Positions 28,538-48,624 of a stretch of 64,000 nt of DNA are shown in pieces. The notes below the pieces were generated by a model, which saw nothing but the letters and a program-made list of their open reading frames with translations, was not told the origin of the DNA and did no database searches. How positions within the stretch are numbered: position 1 is the first letter of the stretch; each line of letters starts with the position of its first letter. Source of the stretch: Nitrosococcus halophilus Nc 4 (GTDB taxonomy: Bacteria; Pseudomonadota; Gammaproteobacteria; Nitrosococcales; Nitrosococcaceae). The stretch lies in contig NC_013960.1 in the NCBI RefSeq assembly GCF_000024725.1, positions 1,200,261 through 1,264,260 on the forward strand, given 5' to 3'. Position numbers and translations under genes: made by a program.

Positions 28538-29683
28538 TTAGGTGGTCTCCATTCGCTCTGCGATAATGACATCAAGCTCCTCTTTCAGGCGGGGTAAGAT
28601 TTCATTGTAGCCATAGCTCCCCAGAGTTTCACTACCCCGTTTGAGGTTAACCGCCTTAGGTCCACACCAAAGACCCAGATCCGCATCATCGGTTTCACCA
28701 GGCCCATTGACGCGACAGCCCATGACTGCAATGGTGACAGCATGATCAGCGGCATATTCCGTCATGGCTTTCACTTGTTGTGCTAACTCGATAAACGCCT
28801 CATTTTCTACCCGCGAACAACTCGGGCAACTAATGATGTTGAGGGTTTTGAGACCGTAGTCCACCACACTGCGTACCCGCCCTGCGGCAATATCAGCGAG
28901 AATTTGGCGGCCTGCTTCGATCTCATCTCCCTTACGGTCAAAGGGCAAGGTGAGGGAAACCCGGATAGTATCTCCAATCCCACGGCTAATAAGTTGCTCA
29001 AAAGCAATTCGAGTTTTGATGATCCCCTCCGGCGGCATACCGGCTTCGGTCACGCCTAGATGAAGGGGGATATCGGGGCGCTCGGCAGCGAAACGTTGGT
29101 TCAGTTCGGTGACCTTCCTGGGGTCTGAATCTTTGAGGGAAACACAATAGCGGGTGAAATCAAGGGCATCCAGCAGCTCACAGTGCTCCAAGGCGCTCGC
29201 CAACATCGGCGAGATGGAGTCGCCCTCAGGGAATTGGGAAGCCTTGGCCGGGTCAACCGAACCCCCATTGACTCCAATTCGTAGGGCACAATCATTTTCA
29301 CCCGCCACATCTAGCAGAAATTTCACCTTATCTTGCCAGGGCTTTTGCCGTTCATGATGGTATAAATGTCCTGGATTATAGCGGACCTTATCCACATAGG
29401 GAGCGACCAGCTTGGCAAGCCGATAATTCTCCTGCAGGTCCACGGACAAGTTTGCCTGGGTTTGCTGCCGGATCTCTATGAGCGCTTCCACATCCCGTTT
29501 GGTGTCTACCGCAATGCGTATCACGTCAGCGCCAGCCTTTACCAAGTCGTTGACCTGCTTTACGGTCGCTTCGACGTCCCGAGTGTGGGTAGCACACATG
29601 CTCTGTACCGCTATCGGGTTGCCATCACCAATAGTGATATTGCCGATGCGGACGGGGCGAGTCGGGTTACGTGGAAGATTCAA
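28538..29683 (-). CDS. ispG: 4-hydroxy-3-methylbut-2-enyl diphosphate synthase
   Basis: IspG converts methylerythritol cyclodiphosphate to HMBPP, the sixth enzymatic step of the MEP isoprenoid pathway, using a [4Fe-4S] cluster. The 381-residue protein has an N-terminal TIM barrel (R-Y-N-P-G-H, I-G-V-N-G-G-S) and the cluster ligands in I-S-C-P-S-C-S-R and G-C-R-V-N-G-P-G-E. Length is close to the E. coli enzyme (372). It stands at the head of a minus-strand block with the hopanoid genes upstream and gloB downstream. Confidence 0.96.
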
Positions 29684-29788: not shown

Positions 29789-30805
29789 TTAATTACTTAG
29801 GGAAGTATCAATGGAAAGTCGCTCCTGTGCGGATTTGGTCTGCCGCCAGAGGCGTTTTCCCTCCATGAATTGCCACACTAAAAGCCCTGGAACGCCCAGG
29901 CACAGCTCTCGTACCCGCCGGGTTAGCGCTAAGGCTAAACTGGCACTATAAGGAAGACCAATGAGGCTGCCCAGTAGGATATACCCGCCCTCTAGGACCC
30001 CTAGGGCCCCAGGAACCAGAAAGGCCGCGCCTTTGACCGCTTGGGCCAGACTTTCAATCATAAGGGCCTCGATCCAGCCGACGGGATGATCAAGAAAATA
30101 AAGTGCCAGCCAGACTTCACCAGCTCCTAGGAGCCAACCGAGGAGCATCCAGGAAGCGCTTCGCAGTACTTGGCGGCGTTGATGATAAAGCTGGACTACC
30201 GCGGTATCCAGGGCATCGGCGCCGCCGACCAAAGCAAGCCAATTGCGGCCACCAGCGAGGTTTTCGAACCGTCGCGCCAGCCAGCCAAATAGGCCACGCT
30301 GTTGGAACCAATAAAAACCAATGATAGATAAGGCACTTAAAGCGGTTACTGCCAGTACCCCTTGGGCCAGTTTACCTTCACCTAGCAACAGGGTCAGGAG
30401 TACTAGCCCCACTAGGGTAAAAATGACCTGGGTGAAGACGGCAAGGGTAAGATTGACTACGACACTGGCTCCTGCCTGGCTGCCAGGCACCTGATGGTGA
30501 GTGAGCAGGCGGGTCTTGACCAATTCACCTCCTATTTGCGCAACCGGCAGGAGGGTATCCACTGACTCGCCTATCCAACGGGCCCACAGGATAGTGCGAA
30601 ACGGTGGCCGAGAAGTGCGGTCGAGCAATACATACCAGCTGAGCCCATCGGCGGTCATGGGGACCAAGTGAAACAGAACTACTACCAACAGCCCCCAGCC
30701 TGCCATGGCTAGGGCAGAGGCCACTTGAGTCACCCCTTGATAGGCCACTAAAGCTGTAAACAGCGCCAGTCCGGCAAGAAAAGCGATATAAACGACCCGT
30801 TTCAC
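29789..30805 (-). CDS. hpnL: Hopanoid-associated membrane protein HpnL
   Basis: The 338-residue protein is a multi-pass membrane protein of the lysylphosphatidylglycerol synthase transmembrane family, with about eight hydrophobic segments, the first at residues 5-27. G-G-E-L-V-K-T near residue 88 and P-G-A-L-G-V-L-E-G near residue 262 are conserved family motifs. General members of the family exist outside hopanoid clusters, so the HpnL name rests on its position next to hpnN, hpnM, hpnB and hpnH. Its biochemical role in hopanoid metabolism is not established. Confidence 0.75.
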   Translation of the reverse strand: MKRVVYIAFLAGLALFTALVAYQGVTQVASALAMAGWGLLVVVLFHLVPMTADGLSWYVLLDRTSRPPFRTILWARWIGESVDTLLPVAQIGGELVKTRLLTHHQVPGSQAGASVVVNLTLAVFTQVIFTLVGLVLLTLLLGEGKLAQGVLAVTALSALSIIGFYWFQQRGLFGWLARRFENLAGGRNWLALVGGADALDTAVVQLYHQRRQVLRSASWMLLGWLLGAGEVWLALYFLDHPVGWIEALMIESLAQAVKGAAFLVPGALGVLEGGYILLGSLIGLPYSASLALALTRRVRELCLGVPGLLVWQFMEGKRLWRQTKSAQERLSIDTSLSN

Positions 30806-31056: not shown

Positions 31057-33765
31057 TTACCCGCAACGGATAGGCTTAGCCTCCCCTTCATTTGCTAAAT
31101 TCTCCCCATTTAAAACACGATCGGAGCGACTTTGGGTTGCCATCAGTAGTGCGGGCAGCAGCAGTAGGGTGCATAGCAAAGTCAGGGCGACGCCGACGGT
31201 GAGCAAAAGTCCCATACTGGCCATCCCTGGATGGGGGGTAACCAATAAATTGCCGAAGCTGCAAGCGCTCACTAAGGCACTGAATACGACCCCCCGGGCG
31301 GTACTGGTTTGCAGGGGATTGCCTGTTTTTGGGGGCGCTTGGCGCATCCGCCGAACCATATGAATGCCGTTGTCAACGCCGATGCCGAGCAAGAGGGGGA
31401 GGGCAATGATGTTGGCAAAGTTGAAGGGGGTGTTCAATATCACCATCGCTGCGCCAAGCAAAATCCCCGCTAAGAGCAGGGGGATCAAGACTAATATCGC
31501 ATCCCGGAGGTTACGTAGCAGAAAGAGCAATATTGCGGTGATTGCTAGGAGGGCATAGGTAAAAGCCTGCTGAAATGCTGCTACGACCGCTTCCCCTGAC
31601 TTGAGGGTAAGCACTAAGGATCCGGTGGCATCAGGTGCAACACTATGGATTTCTTGGACAAAATGACGTAGGTCTTCAGTCTTGTCGATATCGATGTTTT
31701 CCTGGGGAAAAATCTCAATTCGTTGGATGCCGGTGGGGGTCGTCCAACGTTGCTGGAGGTCGGTTGGCAACGTATTCAAGGTAATGGAGCTGGCCTCCAG
31801 CGAGTGCCTTAGCCGTGCCAGGTTATCCGGCAAAGTGGCCAGCAGGCTGCGCTGGAGAGTGAGTAGCCACTGCCGTTGGGTGGCATAATCGCTTTGCTTA
31901 AGACGATTCAGCAGTTGTTGGAATTGCTCTGCCAGTTCATAGGCCGCCGGCGAAGGGGAGGCTGCAGGATCGGCAAGATAGGACTCTAGGGTTCCCATAA
32001 ACTGTCGGAGGGTAACCCCATGCTGTTGTGGTTCCAATTCCGCTGGCCCTAATAGGGGCCCTAGCAGGAACGCTAACTCATCAATCAGCGCCAGCTTTTC
32101 TTCTTGCCGTTCCGGAATGAAATCCTGGACCGTGACGACGGTCCCCACGGTATCCAATTGCTGTAGCTGATGGGCTAGTTGTTGTGCTTGGCTGATATTT
32201 GGGGTTAATACGACTGCGCTCCAGGGCGGAGTAGTTTCAGTTTCAATAAGGTCACGCAAAGTCGATACCGACTCAGAACTAGGGTCCCGGAGATTGAGGG
32301 GGTTGTAGTCAAAGCGCATTTGGGGGAGTAGCACCAGCGCCCCCAGCCCTAAGACTAGGCTACTCCAGAGGATGCTGCGTTTATAATGTAAAGGCAATTG
32401 GAAGAGAAAACCGAAGATCCCTCCTGATGCTCTCTGGGGGCCGGCGGGGGGTACTGGTAGCAGGCGTAGGAGAGCAGGGAGGAATCCCAGGTTGAGCCCT
32501 AGGCTGATAAACATCCCGGTACCAGCGATGAGTCCCAGCTCAGAGACCCCGGAGAAGTCGGTAGGAATAAAGGCATAAAAACCAATGGTCGTGGTGACGG
32601 CGCATAGCACCAGCGAAGTTCCCACTTCAGCGGCTGCCGCGGACAGGGCCTCTCGCTGATTCAATTCAGTATGGACAAGCCGCTGATAACGCAAACAAAA
32701 ATGAATGGCATAGTCGGCGCCTAGACCAATATAGAGTACGGCGAAGGCCGTCGAAATCAGGTTAAGATAGCCTATGGCAACGGTTGCGAATCCAGCGGTG
32801 AGAATGAGTCCGCTGATCAAGGTCAGCAAGGTCGCCAATAGGAGAGTAATCGAGCGCAACCCGATAAGGAGCAGGATGCCGGTCATGGCGATGGCCAGGA
32901 CCCCCGCAATTTTTCCTCCTTCGATGGCGCTTTCTAATTCTTCATGGGAGAGGGCCGCATCCCCGGTGATTCGCACCTGGATGCCAGGGGGAAGTTCCTG
33001 GGCGAATGCACGAATGGCTTCGATGGCGGGCTCTGCTGGCAGGAGCCGGCTGAAATCCATGCGGGGCTGAACAATGATGAACTGGCGCCGCTCTTCTGGG
33101 GCGGTCTGATCCGCGCTCATCAGCTTTTGCCAGGACAGAGTGTAAGGCTGTCCTGAAAGGGTCGCTCCTATGGCCCGACTAATAGGATCGAGGATAGGCT
33201 GCAACTCAAGGGTGGTGTCCCCTTCATGCTTTGCTTTGATAAGCTCGTTGAGCATCTCAAGCAGGCCGCCCAAGGAGGGGTCTTGGGTCAACCGGCCGAG
33301 AAAGGGTTGTGCTTGAGCCAGATTATCCGCCATCTCTTCGAGCTCTGGTAAATCCAGATACATTAAGCCGTAGCGCTCGAAGAAATCGTTGGCTTGGGGA
33401 AGGTAAACGCGCTTAAATAACGCCTCGTTTTGTTCTAGCTTAGCGGCAAGACGCTGGGTTCCCTCCCACGCCTGTTCGGGAATATCCCCATCGATAACCA
33501 GGATGAGGTTGTCTTCGTAATAGGGAAATAGCTGAGAATAGCGCTTGTCGCTTTGCCGAAAAGGAAGATCCGGGGAAAGGATATCCTCGGTATCGGTATT
33601 GACACCGAGATTTTCCGTCACATAGTAAAACACCCCCCCTGTGATCACTAGGGTGACAATAACCACCCAGGGGGCTAACCGGTAAACCCAATCCACACAG
33701 CGGGCCAAAAAGTTGCCCACTCCATTGATATGGCGTGGAGTGTCAGAAGAGGCGGAACGGAGCAT
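31057..33765 (-). CDS. hpnN: Hopanoid RND-type transporter HpnN
   Basis: HpnN-type MMPL/RND proteins move hopanoids from the inner to the outer membrane. The 902-residue protein has the expected duplicated RND layout: one N-terminal membrane segment (about 28-50), a large periplasmic loop (50-270), five to six membrane helices (275-440 with G-L-G-A-D-Y-A-I-H-F), a second membrane helix near 465 and periplasmic loop, and a second helix bundle (735-885 with G-I-G-V-D-N-G-I-H). The G-x-G-x-D-x-x-I-H motif in both halves is a hallmark of the MMPL family. The gene is followed by hpnL and preceded 26 bp upstream by hpnM. Confidence 0.92.
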   Translation of the reverse strand: MLRSASSDTPRHINGVGNFLARCVDWVYRLAPWVVIVTLVITGGVFYYVTENLGVNTDTEDILSPDLPFRQSDKRYSQLFPYYEDNLILVIDGDIPEQAWEGTQRLAAKLEQNEALFKRVYLPQANDFFERYGLMYLDLPELEEMADNLAQAQPFLGRLTQDPSLGGLLEMLNELIKAKHEGDTTLELQPILDPISRAIGATLSGQPYTLSWQKLMSADQTAPEERRQFIIVQPRMDFSRLLPAEPAIEAIRAFAQELPPGIQVRITGDAALSHEELESAIEGGKIAGVLAIAMTGILLLIGLRSITLLLATLLTLISGLILTAGFATVAIGYLNLISTAFAVLYIGLGADYAIHFCLRYQRLVHTELNQREALSAAAAEVGTSLVLCAVTTTIGFYAFIPTDFSGVSELGLIAGTGMFISLGLNLGFLPALLRLLPVPPAGPQRASGGIFGFLFQLPLHYKRSILWSSLVLGLGALVLLPQMRFDYNPLNLRDPSSESVSTLRDLIETETTPPWSAVVLTPNISQAQQLAHQLQQLDTVGTVVTVQDFIPERQEEKLALIDELAFLLGPLLGPAELEPQQHGVTLRQFMGTLESYLADPAASPSPAAYELAEQFQQLLNRLKQSDYATQRQWLLTLQRSLLATLPDNLARLRHSLEASSITLNTLPTDLQQRWTTPTGIQRIEIFPQENIDIDKTEDLRHFVQEIHSVAPDATGSLVLTLKSGEAVVAAFQQAFTYALLAITAILLFLLRNLRDAILVLIPLLLAGILLGAAMVILNTPFNFANIIALPLLLGIGVDNGIHMVRRMRQAPPKTGNPLQTSTARGVVFSALVSACSFGNLLVTPHPGMASMGLLLTVGVALTLLCTLLLLPALLMATQSRSDRVLNGENLANEGEAKPIRCG

Positions 33766-33791: not shown

Positions 33792-34406
33792 TCACGCATC
33801 TGCCGGGCCTCGGTAGAGTGCGATTTTTTGTTTAAGTTTATTGAGCAGGCTACTAAAGCCTTCTGTTTTCATAATGTGGCGATATTCAGCGCGTTTGACG
33901 GCCAGATCGCTCACCCCGTCAGCTATGACATTGACGATCCGCCATTGGCTGTCAGTCTGGTGGAGGAGATAATCGAAAACGACGCTCGAGCCGTCGGGAT
34001 CGATGAGTTTGCTCCGGACTCTCATGCCGCTGCGGGGAAGAGGGGATTGCCCTTCAATGGTGAAATGCTCGCCGCCATAACCGTCAAAATGGCGAGCATA
34101 ATCGACCACAGAAAGTTCCCGGAAAGTCTCTATGAACTGATGGTGTTGCTCGTCGCTAAGTTCATCCCAGGAAGAACCAAGGGTGTAACGGGCAATAAAA
34201 GGTAAGTCAAATTCTTGGGTAATCACGGGCAACAGTCGTTGATAGCGACCCTCAAAGCCAAGTTCCTCGGCTTTTTTCATCACCGACAAAAGGGTATTAT
34301 TCAAACGCTCCACTGCCGAAGAGGGCTGCTCTGCCAAGGCAGGCGGTATGACCAGGGTGATACCCACGAGAATCATCACTATGGCCCCAATTAATACTCG
34401 TTTCAT
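33792..34406 (-). CDS. hpnM: HpnM, MlaC-like periplasmic lipid carrier
   Basis: The 204-residue protein belongs to the Ttg2D/MlaC family of periplasmic lipid-binding proteins. A Sec signal peptide covers residues 1-25 (cleavage after P-P-A-L-A). The body keeps the family segment with Y-T-L-G-x-x-W near residue 75 and the central beta sheet (residues 110-165). In hopanoid clusters this protein is named HpnM and probably shuttles a lipid between HpnN and the outer membrane. It lies 26 bp upstream of hpnN on the same strand. Confidence 0.87.
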   Translation of the reverse strand: MKRVLIGAIVMILVGITLVIPPALAEQPSSAVERLNNTLLSVMKKAEELGFEGRYQRLLPVITQEFDLPFIARYTLGSSWDELSDEQHHQFIETFRELSVVDYARHFDGYGGEHFTIEGQSPLPRSGMRVRSKLIDPDGSSVVFDYLLHQTDSQWRIVNVIADGVSDLAVKRAEYRHIMKTEGFSSLLNKLKQKIALYRGPADA

Positions 34407-34518: not shown

Positions 34519-35637
34519 CTAGGCCCTATAGAGGCGGGCTTTCCAGCGGGAACGTTCGCCCCGCCAATAACGCACCGCCGAACTCCAAGTCATGGCTAAA
34601 TATAGAGCCGCGGTAAGTGGCAGGGTCAAACTCCAAGCGGTTGATAAACCGTAATAGCGCAAAATAGGGAGATAGCTGAGGATCATCCCCATAAGGGCCA
34701 GCAGCGCAGTCCACCGCACTCCTGGATCCGTTGCCCCTAGGCCGATGAGTGGCAGCCAAAAGGCAGCAATGAAAATTGCTGAGCAGAGGAGCAATAACCC
34801 ATTGGAGTAGCCAAGCTGGGTAAAGGCTGTGCGAGCGATCATCTCCCATATGCTGGTCAGGTTGGGGTAGGGGCGGAGGCTGTGGACGCCATGGCTCAGC
34901 CCAATCCAAGTCCGATAGCCAAGGCTCTTAACTTGCCGTGCCAGAGCGCAGTCATCGATCAATGCGCCTCGTAATACCCCAAAGCCTCCCATTTTCGCGA
35001 GCACTTGGGTTTTGATTAAAATACAGCCGCCGGCGGCTGCGGCTATCCAGCAAGGACCCTTATTGGAAAGGTGAAAAGGATAGAGTAGCTTAAAAAAGTA
35101 AACAAAAGCGGGCATCAGCAGTTTTTCCCAGAAAGTCTCCATGCGCAGCCAAGCCATCAAGGAGACGAGGTGCTGTCCTTCTGCTTCCATTTTGTTCCTA
35201 ATCGCTTCGATCATGCCGGGTTGTAGCCTAATATCCCCGTCGAGGAGTAAGGTGAGGGGGGTCTTGATATGGTGCCGGCCCTGCTCAAGGGCCCATAGTT
35301 TGCCACTCCAACCGGGAGGCAAGGGTTTGCCGGCAATGATCTGGAGTTGTTCGCTAGGCATGGCCGCCTGGGCAATCTTAGCGGTGCCATCATTGGATTG
35401 GTCATCGACCAGGATCACCTGGAGTCCCTTGCCTTGGTTTTGCAGGGCGCGCAGGGTCTTGCCAATGACAGGGGCTTCGTTGCGGGCAGGAATAAGCACC
35501 GTGATCTGGCTCAGATCACAGTCTGGCGAAGGGGCTTGGGCTGCAAGGTTTTCTCGACTACTCCAAGGACGCCAAGGTAACAGCAAGATTCCCCACCATA
35601 GGAAAAGACCTGGCAGGGCGACCCACTGGATACTCAT
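34519..35637 (-). CDS. hpnB: Hopene-associated glycosyltransferase HpnB
   Basis: The 372-residue protein is a family 2 glycosyltransferase with a membrane segment at the N-terminus (about 5-22) and three to four at the C-terminus (about 285-355). The GT-A domain has V-L-I-P-A-R-N-E-A near residue 48, V-D-D-Q-S-N-D-G-T, the metal-binding L-D-G-D-I near residue 135, and D-D-C-A-L-A-R near residue 228. It matches the hopene-associated HpnB type in length and context; its product is not firmly known in the literature I can recall. It lies 87 bp downstream of hpnH. Confidence 0.85.
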   Translation of the reverse strand: MSIQWVALPGLFLWWGILLLPWRPWSSRENLAAQAPSPDCDLSQITVLIPARNEAPVIGKTLRALQNQGKGLQVILVDDQSNDGTAKIAQAAMPSEQLQIIAGKPLPPGWSGKLWALEQGRHHIKTPLTLLLDGDIRLQPGMIEAIRNKMEAEGQHLVSLMAWLRMETFWEKLLMPAFVYFFKLLYPFHLSNKGPCWIAAAAGGCILIKTQVLAKMGGFGVLRGALIDDCALARQVKSLGYRTWIGLSHGVHSLRPYPNLTSIWEMIARTAFTQLGYSNGLLLLCSAIFIAAFWLPLIGLGATDPGVRWTALLALMGMILSYLPILRYYGLSTAWSLTLPLTAALYLAMTWSSAVRYWRGERSRWKARLYRA

Positions 35638-35723: not shown

Positions 35724-36839
35724 TTAGGAGGTTCCCCGACTTTTACGGCGCAGGCTATCAACGGGTATGGATACGGTATCTGGCTTTTCTGAATAGTTAA
35801 TGGGCAACTCGGGGGCCAAGGGGCCTTCAAGGCGCGGTCCCTGGAGGAAAACCTTGAAAGCCTTCAGAGGATGATCCAGGGTATCGTTGACGGCCGTGGC
35901 TTCATAGCCGCAATGAGCCATGCAATTAGCGCATTTGGGGTGATTTCCGGTACCGTATTTGCTCCAGTCGGTTTCTTCCATGAGGGATTTGAAGGTGGGA
36001 GCGTAACCTTCTTCCGAAAACAAATAGCAAGGTCGTTGCCAGCCAAAAATGTTGCGGGTAGGGTTACCCCAGGGGGTGCACTGGTAAGTTTGATTCCCGG
36101 CCAGAAAATCTAGAAAGAGGCTGGATTGGTTAAATTGCCATTTACGTCCCTTATCCAGGCGGAAGATATCTCGAAATAGGCGTTTACTGGCGGCTCGCTG
36201 GAGGAAAATGTCCTGGCGTGGGGCGCGTTCATAGCTATAGCCTGGGGAGATGGTGATGCCTTCTATACCCATTTCCATGCAGTAGTCGAAAAAGTCAGCG
36301 ACTTCTGCCGGCTTGACGCCCTGGAATAGGGTGCAGTTTACCGTGACCCGGAAGCCCCGCTCGCGGCATAGTTTGATGGCGGCTACCGCCCGATCAAACA
36401 CGCCTTCTTGGCAAACGGAGGCATCATGGTGTTCCCGGTTGCCGTCCAAATGGACGGAAAAAGTAAGGTAAGGGGACGGTGTATAGTCTTTGAGACGCTT
36501 GGCAAGCAGTAGGGCGTTGGTGCAAAGATACACAAATTTTTTGCGTTGGATAATGCCTTCGACGATCTCTGGCATTTCCTTGTGGAGCAGGGGCTCTCCG
36601 CCGGGAATGGAAACAATCGGCGCGCCGCACTCATCAACCGCATCGAGGCATTCCTGGACACTCAAGCGCTTATTGAGGATCTCCTCCGGGTGATCAATCT
36701 TGCCACAGCCGGCACAGGCCAAATTACAACGGAAAAGGGGTTCAAGCATGAGCACCAGGGGATAGCGTTTTTCACCGCGAAACTTTTTGCCCAAAACATA
36801 GCGGCCAACACGATATTGCTGGATTAAAGGTATACCCAT
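35724..36839 (-). CDS. hpnH: Adenosylhopane synthase HpnH (radical SAM)
   Basis: HpnH couples the 5'-deoxyadenosyl group to diploptene to start bacteriohopanepolyol side-chain formation. The 371-residue radical SAM protein carries the cluster motif C-N-L-A-C-A-G-C-G-K near residue 38 (C-x3-C-x2-C), and S-I-P-G-G-E-P-L-L for SAM binding near residue 76. A C-terminal Cys group (C-A-N-C-M-A-H-C-G) near residue 308 may hold a second cluster or metal. It begins 31 bp after the end of ispH on the same strand. Confidence 0.93.
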   Translation of the reverse strand: MGIPLIQQYRVGRYVLGKKFRGEKRYPLVLMLEPLFRCNLACAGCGKIDHPEEILNKRLSVQECLDAVDECGAPIVSIPGGEPLLHKEMPEIVEGIIQRKKFVYLCTNALLLAKRLKDYTPSPYLTFSVHLDGNREHHDASVCQEGVFDRAVAAIKLCRERGFRVTVNCTLFQGVKPAEVADFFDYCMEMGIEGITISPGYSYERAPRQDIFLQRAASKRLFRDIFRLDKGRKWQFNQSSLFLDFLAGNQTYQCTPWGNPTRNIFGWQRPCYLFSEEGYAPTFKSLMEETDWSKYGTGNHPKCANCMAHCGYEATAVNDTLDHPLKAFKVFLQGPRLEGPLAPELPINYSEKPDTVSIPVDSLRRKSRGTS

Positions 36840-36869: not shown

Positions 36870-37832
36870 CTAGTTTTTCGAATGTGCTGCTTGTTTTTGT
36901 TGCAACTCAGCGCGCAGTAGCACTGCGGGTAGGCGAAAACTGACGGATTCTTGAACCCCGTCTAAATCCTGGACTTCTTCTACACCATAGTCACGCAACT
37001 TGTTTAATACCCCTTGCACAAGCACCTCCGGTGTGGAGGCACCGGCAGTAACTCCCACTCGCGACTGGGGGGTAAACCAACTTGAATCGAGATCTTTCGT
37101 ATCCTGGATAAGATGGGCAATAACGCCGTTTTGTTCGCCAACCTCCCGCAAGCGGTTAGAATTTGAACTATTACGCGCACCCACGACCAGTAAGATGTCG
37201 ATTTCTTTACTCATCTCACGGACCGCGTTTTGGCGATTTTGGGTAGCGTAGCAGATGTCATCGAGTTCTGGGCCATGGATTTTGGGAAAGCGCTTCTTAA
37301 GCGCGTCGACGACATCGCGAGTATCATCGATACTGAGGGTGGTTTGGGTCACATAAGCCACATGTTCCGGGTCTTTGATCTCCAATTTTTCTGCTTCTTC
37401 CACCGAGTCCAGGACATATACGGGCCCCTCCACTCGCCCGCGGGTCCCTTCTACTTCCGGGTGGCCCGAATGGCCAATGATGATCAATTCATTCCCGTGG
37501 CGGTGGTATTTCTGTGCCTGGAGGTGAACCTTGGTAACCAGGGGACAGGTGGCGTCAATGACCTGTAAATTATTTTCCTTGGCTGCTTCCACAACGGCAG
37601 TAGCGACTCCGTGGGCGCTGAAAATGGTCACAGAGCCAGGAGGTATGGAGACTAAATCTTCGGTAAAGATGACCCCTCGTTGCTGTAAGTCTTCGACAAC
37701 GTGTTGATTGTGAACGATCTCGTGTAGGACATAAATCGGAGCGCCGTAAATTTCTAGCGCGCGCTCGACTATATCGATAGCACGGACTACCCCGGCACAA
37801 AAACCGCGGGGTTGAGCGAGGGTAACTTTCAT
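36870..37832 (-). CDS. ispH: 4-hydroxy-3-methylbut-2-enyl diphosphate reductase
   Basis: IspH makes IPP and DMAPP from HMBPP, the final MEP step. The 320-residue protein has the three cluster cysteines in G-F-C-A-G-V, A-T-C-P-L-V and C-Y-A-T-Q-N-R, plus the catalytic E-V-E-G-T segment near residue 126. The length agrees with E. coli IspH (316). It is the first gene of the minus-strand hopanoid block and is divergent from dxs, so two MEP genes share one intergenic region. Confidence 0.96.
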   Translation of the reverse strand: MKVTLAQPRGFCAGVVRAIDIVERALEIYGAPIYVLHEIVHNQHVVEDLQQRGVIFTEDLVSIPPGSVTIFSAHGVATAVVEAAKENNLQVIDATCPLVTKVHLQAQKYHRHGNELIIIGHSGHPEVEGTRGRVEGPVYVLDSVEEAEKLEIKDPEHVAYVTQTTLSIDDTRDVVDALKKRFPKIHGPELDDICYATQNRQNAVREMSKEIDILLVVGARNSSNSNRLREVGEQNGVIAHLIQDTKDLDSSWFTPQSRVGVTAGASTPEVLVQGVLNKLRDYGVEEVQDLDGVQESVSFRLPAVLLRAELQQKQAAHSKN

Positions 37833-38138: not shown

Positions 38139-40061
38139 ATGACTTCTGCAACTAGCTACCCTTTATTAGAACGGATTGATTCCCCAGAATGCCTGCGCCG
38201 TTTGCCTGAGTCCGAGTTGGAGCCGATGGCTGAGGAATTGCGCGATTTCCTTCTCCATTCCGTCGCTCGCAGTGGAGGACACTTAGCCGCTGGCTTGGGG
38301 ACCATAGAACTGACAATCGCGCTGCACTATGTTTTCAATACCCCCGAGGATCGTCTGGTCTGGGATGTGGGGCACCAGGCCTATCCCCATAAAGTGCTCA
38401 CGGGACGACGGGAGCAGTTGGGAACTATCCGTCAAGCAGGTGGCTTGGCGCCTTTCCCCGCCCGTCATGAAAGTCCTTACGACATTTTCGGCGTGGGCCA
38501 TTCTAGTACTTCAATCAGCGCTGCCCTCGGTATGGCCATCGCCGCTAAGCAAAGAGGTGAGAATCGCAAGAGCATCGCGATTATTGGGGATGGCGGGATG
38601 ACAGCGGGAATGGCCTATGAGGCTTTGGACCATGCCGGCGCCTTGGATGCCGATTTGCTCGTGATCCTGAATGACAACGAGATGTCTATCTCCCCTAATG
38701 TGGGGGCGATCTCCAGCTATTTAACCCGGTTGTTGAGCGGCCGGGTTTATTCCACCGTGCGGGAAGGCAGCAAAAAAGTGCTCGAGCATATGCCGCCTCC
38801 CATGTGGGAATTAGCGCGCCGCACGGAAGAACATGTCAAAGGGATGGTGGCGCCGGGGACCTTATTTGAGGAGATGGGATTTAATTACTTCGGCCCTATG
38901 GATGGGCACGACCTCGCCTCCCTGGTCCGCACCCTACGGAATTTACATAAGTTGAGCGGGCCTCGATTGCTGCACATCGTCACCCGCAAAGGCAAGGGTT
39001 ATACGCTGGCTGAGGAAAACCCGGTGACCTACCATGGGGTGACTCCCTTTGATCCCAAGGTCGGGCTTCAGCATGCGCCAAAGAAACCCTCGCCCGCGGT
39101 GAGTTACACCCAAGTCTTCAGCCAGTGGCTATGTGATATGGCTGCCCAGGATGCCCACTTGGTGGGGATTACGCCTGCCATGCGAGAGGGTTCGGGTCTG
39201 GTGAAATTTTCCGAATGTTTTCCAGAACGCTACTTTGATGTAGGTATCGCTGAGCAGCACAGCGTCACTTTGGCTGCCGGGATGGCCTGTGATGGGCTCA
39301 AACCGGTGGTGGCGATTTATTCCACTTTTCTGCAGCGGGCCTACGACCAACTGATCCATGATGTTGCCTTGCAAAACCTGCCGGTACTCTTTGCAATAGA
39401 CCGGGCGGGGGTGGTGGGACCAGACGGGCCGACCCACGCGGGCAGTTTTGACCTGAGCTATCTTCGCTGTGTTCCCAACATGGTTGTCATGGCTCCGGCT
39501 GATGAAAACGAATGCCGGCAGATGCTCTATACCGGGTTCCTGTTGGAGCAGCCTGCAGCCGTCCGCTATCCTCGTGGGAAAGGTCCTGGGGTGGCGGTCG
39601 AAGCAAAAATGACAGCACTCCCGGTGGGTAAGGCGGAGCTAAAGCGGGAAGGCCAAGGTATTGCCATCCTGGCTTTTGGTGCCATGGTGGCACCCGCCCT
39701 GGAGGCGGCGGAAAAGCTCGATGCCAGCGTGGTGAATATGCGCTTTGTTAAGCCCCTGGATGAAAACATGATTCTGGAAATGGCCATGAGCCATGAATTG
39801 CTGGTGACGGTGGAAGATAACGCTATTGCCGGCGGTGCCGGTAGTGCCGTAAACGAGTGTCTCGCGAACCACGGGATTCCGGTGCCTGTGCTTTTGCATG
39901 GCTTGCCCGATTGTTACTTGGAACATGGCTCCCGAGAAGAACTACTGGCCCACTGCCACTTGGATGGGCCGGGAATTCTCCGGAGCATAGAAACTTACCG
40001 GGCTCAATTGCCTAAATCCAAGGCCGCTATGGCACCTTCCGTAATAGGCGTCCATGGCTAG
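38139..40061 (+). CDS. dxs: 1-deoxy-D-xylulose-5-phosphate synthase
   Basis: The thiamine diphosphate enzyme condenses pyruvate and glyceraldehyde-3-phosphate, the entry step of the MEP pathway. The 640-residue protein has the transketolase-type N-terminal domain with G-H-Q-A-Y-P-H-K, the cofactor motif [10 protein letters not shown] and N-D-N-E-M-S-I-S, a pyrimidine domain with G-I-A-E-Q-H-S and [12 protein letters not shown], and [15 protein letters not shown]. The C-terminal domain carries [12 protein letters not shown]. It is a full-length copy, divergent from ispH and close to the hopanoid genes that use its products. Confidence 0.96.
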
Positions 40062-40109: not shown

Positions 40110-40538
40110 TTGTCCCACTTTGTGGAGCTAAGGAAACGGGGAAGATTGCCCCCATTGACCTGGGGGCTTGCCTTTAAGTTCTGGGTTTTATGGGTCCTGG
40201 GGGCAGTGATGACCCTGGCTTGGGGACACGCGGTGATTGTGAAATCCTCGCCTGCAGATCAAGAGGTCCTAGCCCGAGCTCCCGAGGCCATTATGCTTCG
40301 CTTTAACGTTAAGATAGAAAAGGCTTTCGCCCAGGCTAGCCTATGGGGGGCCAAGGATCGTCCGAGACGGCTGTCCATTCCTGAGAGCAATTTTGCCCCA
40401 GAGGCCGATCCAGCCCGCCTCTATATTCCACTGCCCTCCCTAGCGCCGGGCCCCTATCAAGTGCGCTATAAGATCCTAGCCACTGACGGGCATACCACGG
40501 AAGGAGTTATTCGTTTCGTTATCAGCGAGCCCCAGTAA
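40110..40538 (+). CDS. copC: CopC-type periplasmic copper-binding protein
   Basis: CopC proteins bind Cu(II) in the periplasm. The 142-residue precursor has an N-terminal signal segment ending in L-A-W-G, after which the mature chain starts H-A-V-I-V-K-S-S-P-A-D, where the N-terminal His is the first Cu ligand. A second candidate ligand His lies in T-D-G-H-T-T-E-G near residue 127, followed by V-I-R-F-V-I. The start codon is uncertain: TTG 40110 is used here, but an internal start nearer the signal peptide is possible. copD follows 13 bp later, giving the common CopC-CopD pair. Confidence 0.87.
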   Translation: MSHFVELRKRGRLPPLTWGLAFKFWVLWVLGAVMTLAWGHAVIVKSSPADQEVLARAPEAIMLRFNVKIEKAFAQASLWGAKDRPRRLSIPESNFAPEADPARLYIPLPSLAPGPYQVRYKILATDGHTTEGVIRFVISEPQ

Positions 40539-40551: not shown

Positions 40552-42195
40552 ATGACCCTGTTAATCGAGTTTTTTGACGTTTTACTGCATGGTCTTGACC
40601 TCATCGCCTTAGGATTGGCTGTGGGAGGGGGGGTGGTGGCTCTTGCCGTGTTACGGCCTTGGCAGCCTCTCACCATTATGGGCCGAATAGCGCTGCAGCG
40701 AAGTGCTCATTTGATCACAGTGGGAGGCGGGGTATTGGCCGCCACTCAGCTCCTCCGGCTTGCGTTTCAGTTTTGGACTTTGGCCGACGACTTCAGGGAG
40801 TGGCCGCTAGCGCAGTTTTTAGCAACCGATTTTGCTCAAGCGGGGATAGTCCGGATCATTGTGGTTTTAGGGCTTACCGCAGTGTCCTGGTTGTGGCTCT
40901 CGCGGCGGCCTACTTCTCTAGCCGGTTGGATAGGGTTGGCGCTTTTGGGTGGGGGAGTGATGATCGCGGGAGCTTGGCTGGTCCATGGGGCAAGCCGGGT
41001 TGATAACCGGGTGCCCCTGATGACTATTACCGTGGTGCACCAGTGGGCTGCTGTCGTCTGGGTGGGGGGAATCTTGCATCTATTAGCCCTATGGCGGCTG
41101 CTATGGGGAAATCTAGAGGCTTCCTATCTTTGGCCCCGCTGGATGGCCCGTTTCTCGCCTGTGGCGTTGGGCGCGGTGGTTCTCCTGGCCGCTGCCGGTG
41201 TCTACCTGGCAATCAACTATGTGGGGAGCTGGCAAGGCCTGATAGGCACCGGCTATGGGACCATGGTGCTCACTAAAGGGGTGCTGCTGCTTTTGGCGCT
41301 GGGCTTAGCCGCGAGGAATTTTTCCCAAGTTAGGCGTTGGCAAAAGCAGCGCCAAGCGACGGGGGTACTGGAAAAATTACCGCCTTTCCTGGGTGCGGAG
41401 GCCTGGGTATTGAGCATCATCCTGCTCTCGGCGGCGGCCCTGGCTTCATTGCCACCGGCGGTGGATACCCCTGACCAACAGGCCAGTTTTACCGAAGTCG
41501 CGGATCGTTTTATGCCCAGGATGCCCCGCTTAGTGCCTCCATCGCGGGAAGAATATTCGGCGGCTGCCAGCTCTGTCTTTGACATTTATTCTTTGCCCGT
41601 GGCCGTGGAAAGGGCTCAGAGTGAGTTTAATCACAATTTCTCTGGTGCAGTAGTCTTGCTTATGGCGTTGTTAGCGCTTGTGGATCGCAGTAAGTTTTTT
41701 ACCTGGGCCCCTCATTGGCCCCTGCTGTTTTTAGGGCTGGCTGTTTTCCTGTTCCTATTTGCCGCTTCTACCGTTTGGCCCCTGGGAGCGGAAAGTTTTT
41801 GGCAGACCTTACAAGTGCCGGTGGTACTGCAACATCGCCTGTTGACGGTGCTGGTCATTGCCTTGGGTTTATTTGAATGGCGGGTGCGGACGGGAAAGCT
41901 AACCCATCCCCGTGCCGTTTTGGTTTTTCCCCTGCTCTGTATGGTGGGCGGTGGTTTATTATTGACCCATTCCCATACGGTGTTTGCCCTGAAATCCGAA
42001 TTTCTCATTGAAGTCAATCATGCCGCTCTCGGTATCCTGGCGGTCGTCATGGGCGTGGGGCGCTGGTTGGAGCTTCGCCTGGAGTCTGCTGAGGGTTACT
42101 GGGCCGGTTGGGTTTGGCGAGTATCATTTGTTCTGGTTGGACTGCTGCTATTATTTTATTCTGAAGCTCCAGTAACTGATGGAGAGAAACATTGA
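40552..42195 (+). CDS. copD: CopD-type copper transport membrane protein
   Basis: The 547-residue protein is an integral membrane protein with about twelve hydrophobic helices. The central CopD domain (about 155-300) has V-H-Q-W-A-A-V-V-W-V-G-G-I near residue 162 and a helix with A-L-G-L-A-A-R-N near 245. A second bundle (380-545) contains further His, such as H-R-L-L-T, T-H-S-H-T-V and N-H-A-A-L-G, which could bind copper. CopD is thought to import copper given by CopC. For an ammonia oxidiser this could feed copper oxygenases, which is inference. Confidence 0.85.
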   Translation: MTLLIEFFDVLLHGLDLIALGLAVGGGVVALAVLRPWQPLTIMGRIALQRSAHLITVGGGVLAATQLLRLAFQFWTLADDFREWPLAQFLATDFAQAGIVRIIVVLGLTAVSWLWLSRRPTSLAGWIGLALLGGGVMIAGAWLVHGASRVDNRVPLMTITVVHQWAAVVWVGGILHLLALWRLLWGNLEASYLWPRWMARFSPVALGAVVLLAAAGVYLAINYVGSWQGLIGTGYGTMVLTKGVLLLLALGLAARNFSQVRRWQKQRQATGVLEKLPPFLGAEAWVLSIILLSAAALASLPPAVDTPDQQASFTEVADRFMPRMPRLVPPSREEYSAAASSVFDIYSLPVAVERAQSEFNHNFSGAVVLLMALLALVDRSKFFTWAPHWPLLFLGLAVFLFLFAASTVWPLGAESFWQTLQVPVVLQHRLLTVLVIALGLFEWRVRTGKLTHPRAVLVFPLLCMVGGGLLLTHSHTVFALKSEFLIEVNHAALGILAVVMGVGRWLELRLESAEGYWAGWVWRVSFVLVGLLLLFYSEAPVTDGEKH

Positions 42196-42207: not shown

Positions 42208-44316
42208 ATGAAGGTATGGCCGGGAGAACCCTATCCTTTGGGTGCAACGTGGGACGGAGCGGGGACTAATTTTGCCCTTTTTTCAGAGCATGCGACGGCA
42301 GTCGAGCTTTGCCTATTCAATGGCTCAGATGAGACTCGGATCGAGCTTCCGGAAGTGACTGACTTTTCCTGGCATGGTTACTTGCCAGGGGTAGGGCCAG
42401 GGCAGTGCTATGGTTTCCGCGTCCATGGCCCCTATGAACCCCGTGCCGGCCATCGTTTTAATCCGGCTAAACTTTTGCTTGATCCCTATGCCAAGGCCAT
42501 CGCAGGATCGGTGCAGTGGACTGATGCCCTCTATGGTTATCAAATCGGGCATCCCGATGCCGATCTCAGCAAAGACGAGCGGGACAGTGCTTCGATTCTA
42601 CCCAAATGTGTGGTTATCGATCCCAGTTTTGATTGGGAAGGAGATCGCCAACTTTGGACCCCCTGGGACGACACAATAATCTATGAGGTCCATATTAAGG
42701 GCTTTACTGCTCGCCATCCAGAAATTCCGGAGCATCTGCGGGGAACTTATAGCGGCTTGGCCTGCCCGGCGGTGATTGACTACCTTCACTCCCTGGGAGT
42801 GACCGCAGTTGAACTGATGCCCGTTCACCAGAGCGTTTCCGAACGCCCTTTGGTTGAACGGGGATTGAGCAATTATTGGGGCTACAATTCTATCGGCTAT
42901 TTCGCGCCGGATGCCCGCTATGCTGCTAACTCTGAACTAGGCCAGCACGTCACCGAGTTTAAGGCCATGGTCAAGGCATTACATCAGGCGGGGATTGAGG
43001 TGATCCTAGATGTGGTTTATAACCACACAGCCGAGGGGAACCAATTGGGACCTAGCCTTTGTTTTCGAGGGATTGATAATGCCAGCTATTATCGCTTAAA
43101 GCCCGACAACCCCCGTTACTATATGGACTACACGGGCTGCGGTAATACCCTCAACATGATGCATCCCCGCACCCTTCAGCTGATTATGGATAGCCTCCGT
43201 TATTGGGTTCTGGAGATGCATGTGGATGGGTTCCGATTCGACTTGGCGGCGGCCCTCGCCCGGGAGCTCCATGAGGTGGATCGTCTCGGTGCTTTCTTCG
43301 ATATTATTCATCAAGATCCGGTGATTTCCCAGGTCAAGTTGATTGCCGAGCCCTGGGATCTCGGCGAGGGGGGCTATCAGGTCGGTAATTTCCCGCCGGG
43401 CTGGGCCGAGTGGAATGGGAAATATCGGGATTCTGTGCGGGACTATTGGCGCGGGGTGGATCAAACTTTAGGGGAGTTTGCCTACCGCTTTACGGGAAGT
43501 TCCGATCTTTACGAAGCTAGCGGCCGCCGGCCCCATGCCAGCATCAACTTCATCACCGCCCATGATGGTTTTACCCTCCACGATTTGGTTTCTTATAACG
43601 AAAAGCATAATGAGGCCAACGGGGAAGATAACCGGGACGGTGAGAGTCATAACCGCTCCTGGAATTGCGGCGTCGAGGGGCCTACCCATGACCCTAAAAT
43701 CAATAACCTCCGGGCTCGCCAGAAACGTAATTTCCTTGCGACCCTATTTCTATCCCAGGGGGTCCCCATGTTGCTGGGGGGGGATGAGCTAGGCCGGACC
43801 CAAGGGGGGAATAACAATGGTTATTGCCAGGATAATGAGATCTCCTGGTTTGATTGGGACCATAAAGATAATACTTTGCTGGAATTCACCCAACGCCTGA
43901 TTCATTTCCGAAAAGAACATCCTATTTTTCGCCGTCGGCACTGGTTTCAGGGCCGTCCCATTCACGGTGGCGATATCTTTGATATTAAGTGGTTCACTCC
44001 GGAAGGGCAGGAGATGTCCGAAGAAGATTGGAATGTGGGTTATGCCAAATCACTGGGGGTGTTTTTAAATGGGGCAGCGATTGCGAGTACCGATCGTCGT
44101 GGTGAGCCGCTGGTTGATGATAGCTTCTATCTATTATTTAACGCCCATCACAAGCCACTGACTTTTACGCTTCCGGATGAAAAGTGGGGACAACGCTGGG
44201 TAAAAACCCTGGCCACGGATGAGCCACTCCCTGAGGAAGATTCAGACTTTTACCCGGCAGGCAGCGAAATAGGCGTTAAAGGCCGAGCGTTGCTGTTATT
44301 ACGCCAGGTCAGTTGA
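42208..44316 (+). CDS. glgX: Glycogen debranching enzyme GlgX
   Basis: The enzyme cleaves alpha-1,6 branch points of glycogen limit dextrins. The 702-residue protein has an N-terminal CBM48 domain (about 8-100), a GH13 catalytic domain (140-560) and a C-terminal beta domain. GH13 regions are visible as [17 protein letters not shown] (nucleophile Asp), A-E-P-W-D (acid Glu), and [11 protein letters not shown]. Length fits GlgX/isoamylase-type enzymes. It begins 13 bp after copD but has no functional link to it, and no glycogen synthase or phosphorylase genes lie here. Confidence 0.92.
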
Positions 44317-44436: not shown

Positions 44437-46734
44437 GTGATCTTGGCGCACAATTTGGGATTCCCACGGATAGGCAGCCACCGGGAGTTGAAGTGGGCAT
44501 TGGAGTCCTATTGGAAAGGACGTTGGAACCAGGAAAAGCTCACTCAGACGGCGAAGGAGTTACGCGCACTCCACTGGCAACGGCAGCATGAGGCCGGCCT
44601 GGATTTAATCCCGGTAGGTGATTTTTCTTGGTATGACCATGTTCTCGATATGTCTACCCTGCTGGGGGTGGTGCCGCCGCGATTTGGTGAACCCCAAGAT
44701 GAAGTCGATGTGGATACTTATTTCGCCATGGCCCGAGGGCAGGGGTCGGGCGGTGAGGGGGGCGCGGCCTGTGAAATGACCAAATGGTTTAATACCAATT
44801 ACCATTACATTGTCCCTGAGTTTCAACCGCAGCAGGATTTTCGTCTTGCCAGCAACGCCCTATTTAACCAAGTCGCGGAGGCCCAAGCGCTGGGTTTTTC
44901 CGTTAAACCGGTATTACTTGGGCCCTTAAGCTTTTTATGGTTGGGCAAGGTTAAGGGCGAGGCCTTTGATAAGCTTTCTTTGTTAGAGTCGCTGCTTCCC
45001 GTTTACGGCCAGTTGTTGCACCGCCTTCAAACCCAAGGAGTCGAATGGGTTCAGATCGACGAGCCCATTCTGGTTTTGGATTTGCCCGCGGATTGGAAGG
45101 CGGCTTTTGAAAAGGCCTACTCTGGCCTGGCGAATAGGGGTCTAAAATGCCTTCTGACCACTTACTTTGGCGCGCTTGGGGATAATACTCACCTTGCTTG
45201 CCACTTGCCTGTAGAGGGGTTGCATATCGATCTGGCGAGCGGTCCCGAGCAACTGACCAAAGTTTTGGATGAGCTTCCTCCCTATAAAGTACTCTCAGCG
45301 GGCGTGGTTGATGGGCGCAATATTTGGCGTAATGATCTGGAGGCCAGTCTCGGACTGCTGGAACCGCTGCGGGAACGCCTTGGGGAGCGGCTTTGGGTGG
45401 CCCCTTCCTGCTCCTTGCTCCATAGTCCCATGGATTTGGCTCTGGAGCCAGCACTGGATGAAGAATTGAAGTCATGGTTGGCTTTTGCGGTGCAAAAAAT
45501 CGAAGAGGTGGTAACCCTCAAACAGGCGTTAGTTGAAGGGCGGAATTCGGTGGCCGGGGCCTTGGAAGTTTCGGCGGCAGCCCAATCTGGCCGCCGCCAG
45601 TCAGATCGGATTTATCGGCCGGAAGTCAGGTCCCGCATGGCCAAGGTGAATCCGGAGATGGCCCGGCGCCGTCACGACTATTCCATTCGTGCCCAAGTCC
45701 AGCGAGAACAGTTAAAACTGCCCCCTTATCCGACCACCACAATTGGCTCTTTTCCCCAGACTTCGAGCATCCGTAAGATACGACGGGATTTTAAGGCGGG
45801 CCGGATTTCTGAGCAGGAATACCGGCTGCAGATGGAAGCGGAGATCGCCAGGGCCATCGAGGCTCAGGAAAACTATGGGTTAGATGTGCTCGTCCATGGG
45901 GAAGCTGAGCGCAATGACATGGTGGAGTACTTTGGCGAGCAGCTAGAGGGCTTTGCCTTTACCCACAATGGCTGGGTCCAAAGCTATGGTTCCCGTTGCG
46001 TTAAGCCACCGATCATCTATGGGGATGTGACTCGCCGGCAGCCCATGACGGTAGCGTGGATACGCTATGCCCAATCACTGACTTCTAGGCGGGTAAAGGG
46101 GATGTTGACAGGGCCGGTCACTTTGTTGCAATGGTCCTTCGTGCGCGATGATCAGCCCTATTCGGATACCTGCCTCCAACTGGCCCTGGCTCTCCGCGAT
46201 GAAGTTCAGGATTTGGAACAGGCGGGTATCAAAATTATCCAGGTGGACGAGCCGGCTTTTCGGGAAGGGTTGCCATTGCGGCGAACGGAATGGGAGCACT
46301 ATTTGGATTGGGCGGTGCGTTGTTTCCGAGTGGCTTCTACGGGAGTGGGGGACGGAACTCAGATTCACACCCACATGTGTTACTCGGAGTTTAACGATAT
46401 CATTCATGCTATCGCTGCCTTGGATGCGGATGTCATTACCATTGAAACTTCCCGCTCCGGTGGGGAACTGTTAGAGGCTTTTGCTGCCTTCGAATATCCT
46501 AATGAAGTGGGGCCTGGGGTCTATGACATTCATTCTCCAGCACTACCCAATGTCAACCAAATCGTGGGCTTGATTAAAAAGGCGGCTGAATATGTTCCCG
46601 CTGAGCGGCTTTGGATCAATCCCGATTGTGGTCTCAAAACCCGCGATTGGCCAGAGGTGGAAGCGGCGCTTTGCACCCTGGTGGCGGCAGCACAAGAATT
46701 ACGGACTGATGAAGTGGGCCTTGCTAGGCGGTAA
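44437..46734 (+). CDS. metE: Cobalamin-independent methionine synthase
   Basis: MetE transfers a methyl group from 5-methyltetrahydropteroyltriglutamate to homocysteine. The 765-residue protein has the two-barrel layout: N-terminal domain with F-P-R-I-G-x-x-R-E-L-K near residue 9, and the C-terminal catalytic barrel with [10 protein letters not shown] near residue 430. Zinc ligands are visible in H-T-H-M-C-Y-S-E-F and at the C-terminus in N-P-D-C-G-L-K-T-R, with a Glu in I-E-T-S-R-S. Start is GTG 44437 with GGGAGG upstream. A MITE-like copy begins directly after the stop. Confidence 0.96.
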
Positions 46735-46867
46735 AGACATCGGCTTGCCACGCCAGGCTTTCCTGCCTGGCGGCCAAGTCCCGCCCGCCCCTTCCTGGGA
46801 CGGGCATTCACCGGTCTGGTCACGTCAGCCCCAAGACCAATGGGGTTTCCTCTAAATGGGAACCGCC
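46735..46867. mobile_element. MITE-like palindromic element, short inverted copy
   Basis: This 133-bp copy starts directly after the metE stop and is inverted relative to the element at 15684-15935. It shares the CCATTTAGA end, the GTGACCAGACC segment, the CCCGTCCCAGGAAGGGGCGG stem and the CGCCAGG/CCTGGCG hairpin. It lacks the 52 bp present in the long copy and also the second terminal repeat. Confidence 0.7.
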
Positions 46868-46951
46868 CTAGCTCACGATTACCTGGAATTAGCTAAGCGT
46901 TTCTACTAGATTTTTTGTTATCGCTTGCGACGTGAGCAAAAAGGTGGTGCC

Positions 46952-48481
46952 ATGCGTTTTCTCGCTGTCCATCCAGGCCCCCTCATGTACACCGAGGTTT
47001 TTTTACGGCTGGAGCCTTTGGGGCTTGAGTTGGTTGCCGAGGCGGTTCGGCGTGGGGGGCATGAGGTCCGAATCATTGATTTGCAAGTAGAAAGCCACGC
47101 TGCCTATTTTAAGCTCATTGAACATTGGCGCCCCCATGTCATTGCCTTCTCATGCAATTTTCTAGCGAATGTTCCCGAAATTGTTGATCTGGCAAAAGAG
47201 ACCAAAGGATGCTTGCCCCAATGTTTTATTTTTGTGGGGGGGCACAGTGCTTCTTTTACTGTCCGGGAACTTCTGGAGCACGGGGAAGGGAGTATCGACT
47301 GTATTCTTCGTGGGGAAGGGGAAGCTTCTGCGGCACAGCTTATGGATGTGGTCGAACAGGACAGGGAGGCCATCACCGAAGTGCCTGGGGCTGTGACTCT
47401 GGAGGGGGAAGGTCCCGCCCCTGTCATGGTGCCCAGTCTTGATGAGGTGCGCCCCGCCCGAGATTTGGTACGGCACCGCCGTAAATACTTTATTGGCCAG
47501 CTTGATCCTTGTGCTTCCATTGAATTTTCACGGGGGTGTCCTTGGGATTGCAATTTTTGCAGCGCCTGGACCTTTTATGGCAGAAGCTATCGCACTCTCA
47601 GCCCGGAGGTGGCTGTCGAAGAACTGGAACGGATAAAGGAGCCGGGTATTTTCATCGTTGATGATGTGGCCTTTATCCAATCAAAGCATGGGCTAGAGAT
47701 CGGTGAGGCAATCGCCCGTAAAGGCATCAAGAAAAAATTCTATCTTGAAACCCGGGGTGATGTGCTCTTGCGCAACAAGGATGTTTTTAAGTTTTGGCGG
47801 GACTTGGGGGTGGAATATATGTTTCTGGGCCTTGAGGCTATCGATGAAGAGGGATTGCGTAAATTTCGCAAGCGGGTCCCTTTTGACAAAAATATGGAAG
47901 CCCTCGAATGCGCCCGTTCCTTAGGAATCACCGTGGCCATTAATATTATCGCGGATCCGGATTGGGACCGGGAGCGATTTGAAGTCGTTCGTCAGTGGTG
48001 TCTTGAGGTCCCGGAGGTGGTGAACATCAGTATCAATACGCCTTACCCGGGTACGGAAATCTGGCACACCGAATCCCACCGCCTAACGACTCGGGATTAC
48101 CGTCTCTTTGATATTCAACACGCGGTACTTCCAACCCGGCTTCCCTTGGAGGAATTTTATGCGGAGCTTCTTAAAACCCAACAGGTCATGAATATGAAGC
48201 ATGTCTCCTGGCGGACGGCGAGGCACTTAACCGCATTAGTCGCCCAGCGCCTGTTTAGGGGCCAATTCAATTTCTTAAAGATGCTTTGGCGCTTCAATAA
48301 GGTCTACAATTTAGAGCGCTTACTTGCCGATCATGGACGGCCACCCAAGTATGAACTGGCTTTGCCCTCTGCTCCGGGAACGGCGGTTGATCCGAAAACG
48401 CTCTACGTTCATAGAGTGCAAGGGCGACGGAAACCGGTGCTTGATAGGGCCACTGCACAATTTGTTGAAGAAACTCGATAA
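46952..48481 (+). CDS. hpnR: Hopanoid C-3 methylase-like B12-binding radical SAM protein
   Basis: The 509-residue protein has an N-terminal cobalamin-binding domain (about 1-140) and a radical SAM domain with C-P-W-D-C-N-F-C near residue 200. The opening A-V-H-P-G-P-L-M-Y-T-x-x-F-L-R-L-E-P and the length match HpnR, which methylates the A ring of hopanoids at C-3. ATG 46952 is chosen because AAGGTGG lies before it; the upstream in-frame codons lack homology. It is 8-18 kb away from the rest of the hopanoid genes and directly follows metE, which supplies the methionine for SAM. HpnJ- and HpnP-type radical SAM proteins are the alternatives. Confidence 0.8.
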   Translation: MRFLAVHPGPLMYTEVFLRLEPLGLELVAEAVRRGGHEVRIIDLQVESHAAYFKLIEHWRPHVIAFSCNFLANVPEIVDLAKETKGCLPQCFIFVGGHSASFTVRELLEHGEGSIDCILRGEGEASAAQLMDVVEQDREAITEVPGAVTLEGEGPAPVMVPSLDEVRPARDLVRHRRKYFIGQLDPCASIEFSRGCPWDCNFCSAWTFYGRSYRTLSPEVAVEELERIKEPGIFIVDDVAFIQSKHGLEIGEAIARKGIKKKFYLETRGDVLLRNKDVFKFWRDLGVEYMFLGLEAIDEEGLRKFRKRVPFDKNMEALECARSLGITVAINIIADPDWDRERFEVVRQWCLEVPEVVNISINTPYPGTEIWHTESHRLTTRDYRLFDIQHAVLPTRLPLEEFYAELLKTQQVMNMKHVSWRTARHLTALVAQRLFRGQFNFLKMLWRFNKVYNLERLLADHGRPPKYELALPSAPGTAVDPKTLYVHRVQGRRKPVLDRATAQFVEETR

Positions 48482-48522
48482 GCATCCAGAATTCAGGCTA
48501 TTAGGCGGCCTTTCATCCCCCC

Positions 48523-48573: not shown

Positions 48574-48624
48574 TCTCTTGAGTCTATACCCTAAAATGTA
48601 TAAGGTTTTCAGATAGGCTCTCAA

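Follow-up and report, generated by a model that had tools for sequence, protein, structure and literature searches.

An HpnR-type hopanoid C-3 methylase is very probably encoded in a marine ammonia oxidizer, Nitrosococcus halophilus, where the methionine synthase gene metE is an incidental neighbor of hpnR. The analyzed window is a stretch of 64,000 nucleotides (C2:1200261-1264260) from a genome of 4,145,260 bases (G000), the larger contig of which has 4,079,427 bases. The gene itself is an ordinary hpnR; its host is what makes it useful, and the genomic context earlier ascribed to it is corrected here. The gene is located as follows:

46952..48481, + strand: hpnR, hopanoid C-3 methylase, 509 aa (evidence: TIGR04367, PF02310, PF04055, alignment, tree, sequence)

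The reading frame is uninterrupted from the ATG to position 48481, and the open frame reaches further 5' to a TTG at 46925. The ATG at 46952 is favored as the start because AAAGGTGG is found immediately before it. The 509-aa product matches the NCBIfam equivalog TIGR04367 (HpnR) with 922.9 bits over model positions 1-489 of 490, the curated cut-off for this model being 650 bits. Proteins of the HpnR family bind cobalamin, and a B12-binding domain was found at the N-terminus (PF02310, 74.1 bits; cut-off 32.1), together with a Radical_SAM domain (PF04055, 79.6 bits; cut-off 29.5). The cysteines C196, C200, and C203 of the cluster-binding motif CxxxCxxC are invariant in 15 of the 15 aligned HpnR rows. 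Full-length alignment to 11 rows from outside Nitrosococcus, including methanotrophs, Paludisphaera, and Kozakia, yields 62-72% identity. The Nitrosococcus protein shares the full-length match and domain set of HpnR proteins known under TIGR04367. The original prediction of an HpnR-like C-3 hopanoid methylase is supported by the TIGR04367 score and by the tree described below, and there is very little doubt that the predicted product of this ORF is a true HpnR.

Host and distribution of hpnR

The genome containing the window encodes AmoA (NF041557, 396 bits; cut-off for bacterial AmoA 290), in support of the ammonia-oxidizing host that had been suggested for HpnR. This host is almost certainly an ammonia oxidizer. 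The squalene-hopene cyclase Shc was found in the host genome (843.6 bits) and in all four Nitrosococcus genomes. HpnH is also present in the host (about 561.5-561.8 bits; TIGR03470 cut-off 225.05), and the gene for HpnG adjoins shc. Judging by these genes, the host would make hopanoids.

Among 369 sampled genomes of the class, 5 have HpnR and 7 have a member of the ammonia/methane monooxygenase A family above the cut-off; at E 1e-40, the latter number rises to 11. The two draws of 369 genomes, one for HpnR and one for monooxygenase A, were taken as the same sample since their handles agree. Both proteins occur together in three sampled genomes: N. halophilus, Methylotuvimicrobium (G252), and G139. 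The remaining four of the 7 monooxygenase A genomes have no HpnR, one example being G326 with three copies at 470 bits, and two of the 5 HpnR genomes (G014 and G167) have no monooxygenase match. Genomes with an ammonia/methane monooxygenase of this family therefore do not generally encode HpnR.

Within the genus, HpnR was found above the cut-off and free of internal stops in all four genomes; the copies from the other three genomes are 87-95% identical to that of the window, with the catalytic motif invariant. Such an intact and conserved gene argues for selection keeping hpnR. For this reason, it seems unlikely that hpnR is an intact but mostly silent relict, ancestral or acquired, with only a minor contribution to the lipids, a reading that draws on the apparent inability of Nitrosococcus to make the cobalamin cofactor (see below) and on culture data for Alphaproteobacteria, where 4 of the 12 hpnR-bearing species made no 3-methylhopanoids, as given in a section of PMC12583986.

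Gene neighborhood of hpnR and the position of metE

The preferred reading, with hpnR as a true methylase gene and metE as an incidental neighbor, was examined against the surrounding genes. The features of this part of the window are the following:

28538..29683, - strand: ispG (TIGR00612 276.4 bits, slightly below the cut-off of 280.25; NF001540 304.9 bits, cut-off 345)
29789..30805, - strand: hpnL, putative membrane protein (TIGR03476 398.6 bits, cut-off 195.65)
31057..33765, - strand: hpnN, hopanoid RND transporter (TIGR03480 1084.9 bits, cut-off 751.85; NF052374 692.9 bits, under its cut-off of 1100)
33792..34406, - strand: hpnM (TIGR03481 257.6 bits, cut-off 160.1)
34519..35637, - strand: hpnB-like glycosyltransferase (TIGR03469 378.6 bits, just below the cut-off of 379.25)
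35724..36839, - strand: hpnH, adenosyl-hopene transferase (TIGR03470 561.5 bits, cut-off 225.05)
36870..37832, - strand: ispH (TIGR00216 328.3 bits, cut-off 187.85)
38139..40061, + strand: dxs, 1-deoxy-D-xylulose-5-phosphate synthase (TIGR00204 892.1 bits)
40110..40538, + strand: copC-like periplasmic protein (NF033814 65.5 bits, under the cut-off of 95)
40552..42195, + strand: copD-like membrane protein (PF05425 65 bits; NF033808 under its cut-off)
42208..44316, + strand: glgX, glycogen debranching protein (TIGR02100 1068.7 bits)
44437..46734, + strand: metE, cobalamin-independent methionine synthase (TIGR01371 1099.8 bits, cut-off 929.95; NF003556 1177.5 bits)
46735..46951, + strand: metE-hpnR gap of 217 bp, with a hairpin sequence at 46751-46772

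The genes ispG-hpnL-hpnN-hpnM-hpnB-hpnH-ispH (28538-37832, - strand) are divergent from dxs-copC-copD-glgX-metE-hpnR on the + strand. Between dxs and the start of hpnR lie 6.9 kb, ispH and hpnH are at a distance of 9-10 kb from this start, and the divergent layout is kept in all four Nitrosococcus genomes. Given this gene order, hpnR stands at the outer edge of a conserved hopanoid/isoprenoid neighborhood. The earlier description of hpnR as lying behind metE rather than in the hpn cluster is therefore only half correct: the hpn cluster, together with ispG, ispH, and dxs, occupies 28538-40061 of the same window. Even a real separation would be ordinary, since the hpnP and hpnR genes of Alphaproteobacteria are usually not co-localized with other hopanoid genes, as stated in a section of PMC12583986. 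In Methylotuvimicrobium buryatense (G252, locus L006), the group hpnN-copC-like-copD-dxs is shared with the window, and about 6.3 kb separate hpnR from dxs; unlike in the window, the two genes are convergent, and metE was not found next to hpnR.

The place of metE immediately before hpnR was confirmed by TIGR01371 and by the Pfam domains Meth_synt_1 and Meth_synt_2 in MetE, and the two genes are adjacent and on the same strand in all four Nitrosococcus genomes. The intergenic gap measures 217 bp in the window and 571, 392, and 408 bp in G002, G003, and G001, respectively; except for the ribosome-binding end, these gaps align poorly between two species pairs. The hairpin just after metE (46751-46772) has its exact core in G002 as well and was not found at the G001 and G003 loci. 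It is strong, has no T run, and gave no hit in the terminator scan. A simple scan for promoters and terminators around metE-hpnR gave nothing beyond the level of shuffled sequence. An Rfam scan of 37500-55000 revealed no RNA regulator or riboswitch over metE or hpnR; the lone match in this range, to an sRNA family with E 0.81, is under the gathering score, and the presence of any Rfam element, riboswitches included, over these genes was accordingly rejected. The pairing of metE with hpnR was also rejected outside Nitrosococcus. It was found at 0 of 19 HpnR loci (17 loci plus those of G139 and G014), where between 1 base and about 19 kb of upstream DNA was available, with at least 3 kb at 13 loci.

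A MetR-like LysR regulator is encoded 4.7 kb downstream of hpnR (53141-54091, - strand; 290 bits, cut-off 382), next to a cysQ/inositol-phosphatase-like gene. The metR-like gene was found in two of the four genomes, those of the window and G002, about 9 kb downstream of hpnR having been examined in the other two. Directly 3' of hpnR lies a gene for a Ser/Thr protein kinase (48625-50874, + strand) with a weak Cache match under the Pfam cut-off. This gene is kept in G002, and different genes occupy its place in G001 and G003.

The adjacency of metE and hpnR throughout the genus and the MetR-like regulator of the window would fit one functional unit, co-transcribed and co-regulated, in which MetE supplies methionine and hence SAM for HpnR. 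Such a unit is quite improbable in view of the variable and poorly conserved gaps of 217-571 bp, the strong hairpin (without a T run) after metE in two of the four genomes, the absence of an RNA regulator in 37500-55000, metE not being found at any of the 19 HpnR loci outside the genus (13 with at least 3 kb upstream), and the metR-like gene being found in two of the four genomes within the stretches examined; moreover, SAM feeds many enzymes. The suggestion that the gene order ties methyl supply to hopanoid methylation thus finds no backing, and, from the gaps, the absent Rfam regulator, and the missing pairing elsewhere, metE is read as a neighbor without a shown functional tie, although the two genes may be co-transcribed.

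Some further hopanoid genes show differences or additions within the genus. The hpnB gene is full-length in the window; in the other three Nitrosococcus genomes, only fragments with 33-76 aligned residues are found between hpnH and hpnM. A group of genes for squalene synthase, Shc, and HpnG is located outside the window, about 54 kb downstream. Downstream of hpnG on the same strand, genes for an NTP-transferase, PEP mutase, phosphonopyruvate decarboxylase, and 2-AEP aminotransferase were found in all four Nitrosococcus genomes (L028:7355-15937, - strand; also L061, L062, and L063 with L051-L053). In N. halophilus, the PEP mutase of this operon has a second NTP-transferase domain, and several operon genes overlap. 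The presence of a 2-aminoethylphosphonate pathway within the Nitrosococcus hopanoid operon suggests phosphonate-bearing hopanoids or phosphonolipids.

Phylogeny and related radical SAM families

The maximum-likelihood tree was built from 21 HpnR and 2 BchE rows, with HpnJ and HpnP not among the rows. Partial or broken HpnR rows (L014, L016, and L017) and duplicate copies of loci (L037-L040) were omitted. The 21 HpnR rows, including the gene of the window, are parted from the two BchE rows by a branch with 100/100 support, the branches to BchE being very long. The four Nitrosococcus proteins form a single clade (100/100). This clade joins three sequences from alphaproteobacterial MAGs (97/95) and not those of Methylococcaceae, with 6 of the 20 inner branches of the tree open. 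Compared with known HpnR proteins, that of Nitrosococcus differs both in this branching and in its host, a gammaproteobacterial ammonia oxidizer. The phylogenetic check called for by the original prediction was thus run against HpnR and BchE and groups the gene with HpnR; HpnJ is excluded by score alone.

The runner-up family for the product is BchE with 177.4 bits (cut-off 481.35), and the HpnJ model yields 70.8 bits (cut-off 577.6). Identity as BchE or HpnJ was rejected by these scores below the cut-offs and, for BchE, by its separate place in the tree. Among proteins of known structure, four sequences match HpnR weakly: the best is 9ccb, a radical SAM core protein (E 6e-11), followed by AprD4, OxsB, and TokK. 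It is hardly conceivable that the ORF belongs to another B12-binding radical SAM family (BchE, HpnJ, or HpnP-like) with no C-3 methylation: BchE, HpnJ, and others do score above noise, as expected inside one superfamily, but all 16 other families among the listed matches fall under their own cut-offs while HpnR lies far above its cut-off, the full-length identity extends to HpnR proteins of methanotrophs and of the acetic acid bacterium Kozakia, and the tree puts the gene among the HpnR rows.

Cobalamin supply and 3-methylhopanoids

The chemistry of HpnR considered here is general knowledge of the enzyme class. In the proposed pathway, squalene would be cyclized by Shc, and the extended side chain would be made by HpnH and HpnG. 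HpnR would then pass a methyl group from SAM, via bound methylcobalamin, to C-3 of hopanoid ring A, and a second SAM would be cleaved at its [4Fe-4S] cluster during this transfer. In Nitrosococcus, HpnR would be active only when the cell imports B12, and MetE would keep the production of methionine and SAM independent of B12. The catalysis, the product, and the B12 dependence of HpnR in vivo are what we infer for this protein. In Methylococcus capsulatus, HpnR is required for C-3 methylation (Welander and Summons, 2012, as cited in a passage of PMC5462960).

No match for CobQ was found in the four Nitrosococcus genomes; in control searches of 14 known genomes, CobQ gave a signal in 13 and exceeded the cut-off in 7. 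CobT had no match in the one Nitrosococcus genome searched, with a control signal in 8 of 14 known genomes, 5 of them over the cut-off. From CobQ in four genomes and CobT in one, Nitrosococcus seems unable to make B12. Each of the four genomes yielded at least one cobalamin riboswitch, 145 of the 175-253 first-look candidates having been scored per genome. In all four, the ORF that begins next to this riboswitch reads as one for a TonB-dependent receptor. In N. halophilus, the riboswitch lies about 160 kb before the window, and the receptor, the only one scanned, has the B12 receptor as its best family, with 236 bits on a cut 502-aa slice (cut-off 600). Control of metE or hpnR by a cobalamin riboswitch was rejected, as the riboswitch found among the scored candidates of each genome precedes the TonB receptor. 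MetH was found above the cut-off in the host genome.

The missing CobQ and CobT matches and the riboswitch before the TonB receptor imply that 3-methylation should depend on imported B12. In the resulting picture, the cell would import B12, which could serve both MetH and HpnR, and would be able to make methionine B12-free via MetE. A similar combination was described for marine nitrite-oxidizing Nitrospira, in which HpnR is present and B12 synthesis is lacking, a situation called peculiar in a section of PMC10579370; like Nitrosococcus, Nitrospira is a nitrifier, but it oxidizes nitrite and belongs to a different phylum. Whether B12 obtained from other organisms gates the output of 3-methylhopanoids in marine gammaproteobacterial ammonia oxidizers, with MetE permitting B12-free growth, appears evenly balanced on these genomic data. 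Such gating would extend to 3-methylhopanoids the link of B12 and nitrifiers told for 2-methylhopanoids in Nitrobacter in a section of PMC12583986.

3-Methylhopanes have long been taken as traces of aerobic methanotrophs, as summarized in a section of PMC12583986, and passages of PMC12583986 and PMC5462960 already place hpnR beyond methanotrophs. The proposal that a producer among ammonia oxidizers would matter for the interpretation of these molecules is sound as to significance and is not new in kind, given hpnR beyond methanotrophs and in Nitrospira. HpnR in all four Nitrosococcus genomes adds marine ammonia oxidizers as possible producers of 3-methylhopanoids; since producers beyond methanotrophs are already established, this is an addition and not an upset. 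In the excerpted text of a review (PMC5516240), the lipids of Nitrosomonas are undiagnostic and the single use of "3-methyl" concerns nitrite-reducing methanotrophy. A genome comparison of N. oceani (PMC7285500) contains the terms hopan, squalene, cobalamin, and B12 nowhere in its text, according to a word count. No report joining Nitrosococcus with methylhopanoids or hpnR was found in the open-licence literature. Elling et al. are said to have surveyed the hopanoid genes of cultivated nitrifiers in 2022, and the Nitrosococcus HpnR may be in print there; a 2020 work of Elling et al. reportedly concerns B12 and 2-methylhopanoids.

If B12 gating holds, 3-methylhopanes in sediments would partly record nitrification and B12 supply, and not only aerobic methanotrophy. 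The picture of B12 import predicts that vitamin-free cultures lack 3-methylhopanoids and that these lipids are formed once B12 is supplied. For the enrichment of N. wardiae, a mineral medium was used that includes no vitamin in the recipe printed in PMC4830845, and the pure culture was grown in a buffered form of this medium (same source). Under B12 gating, standard vitamin-free cultures of this kind would miss 3-methylhopanoids.
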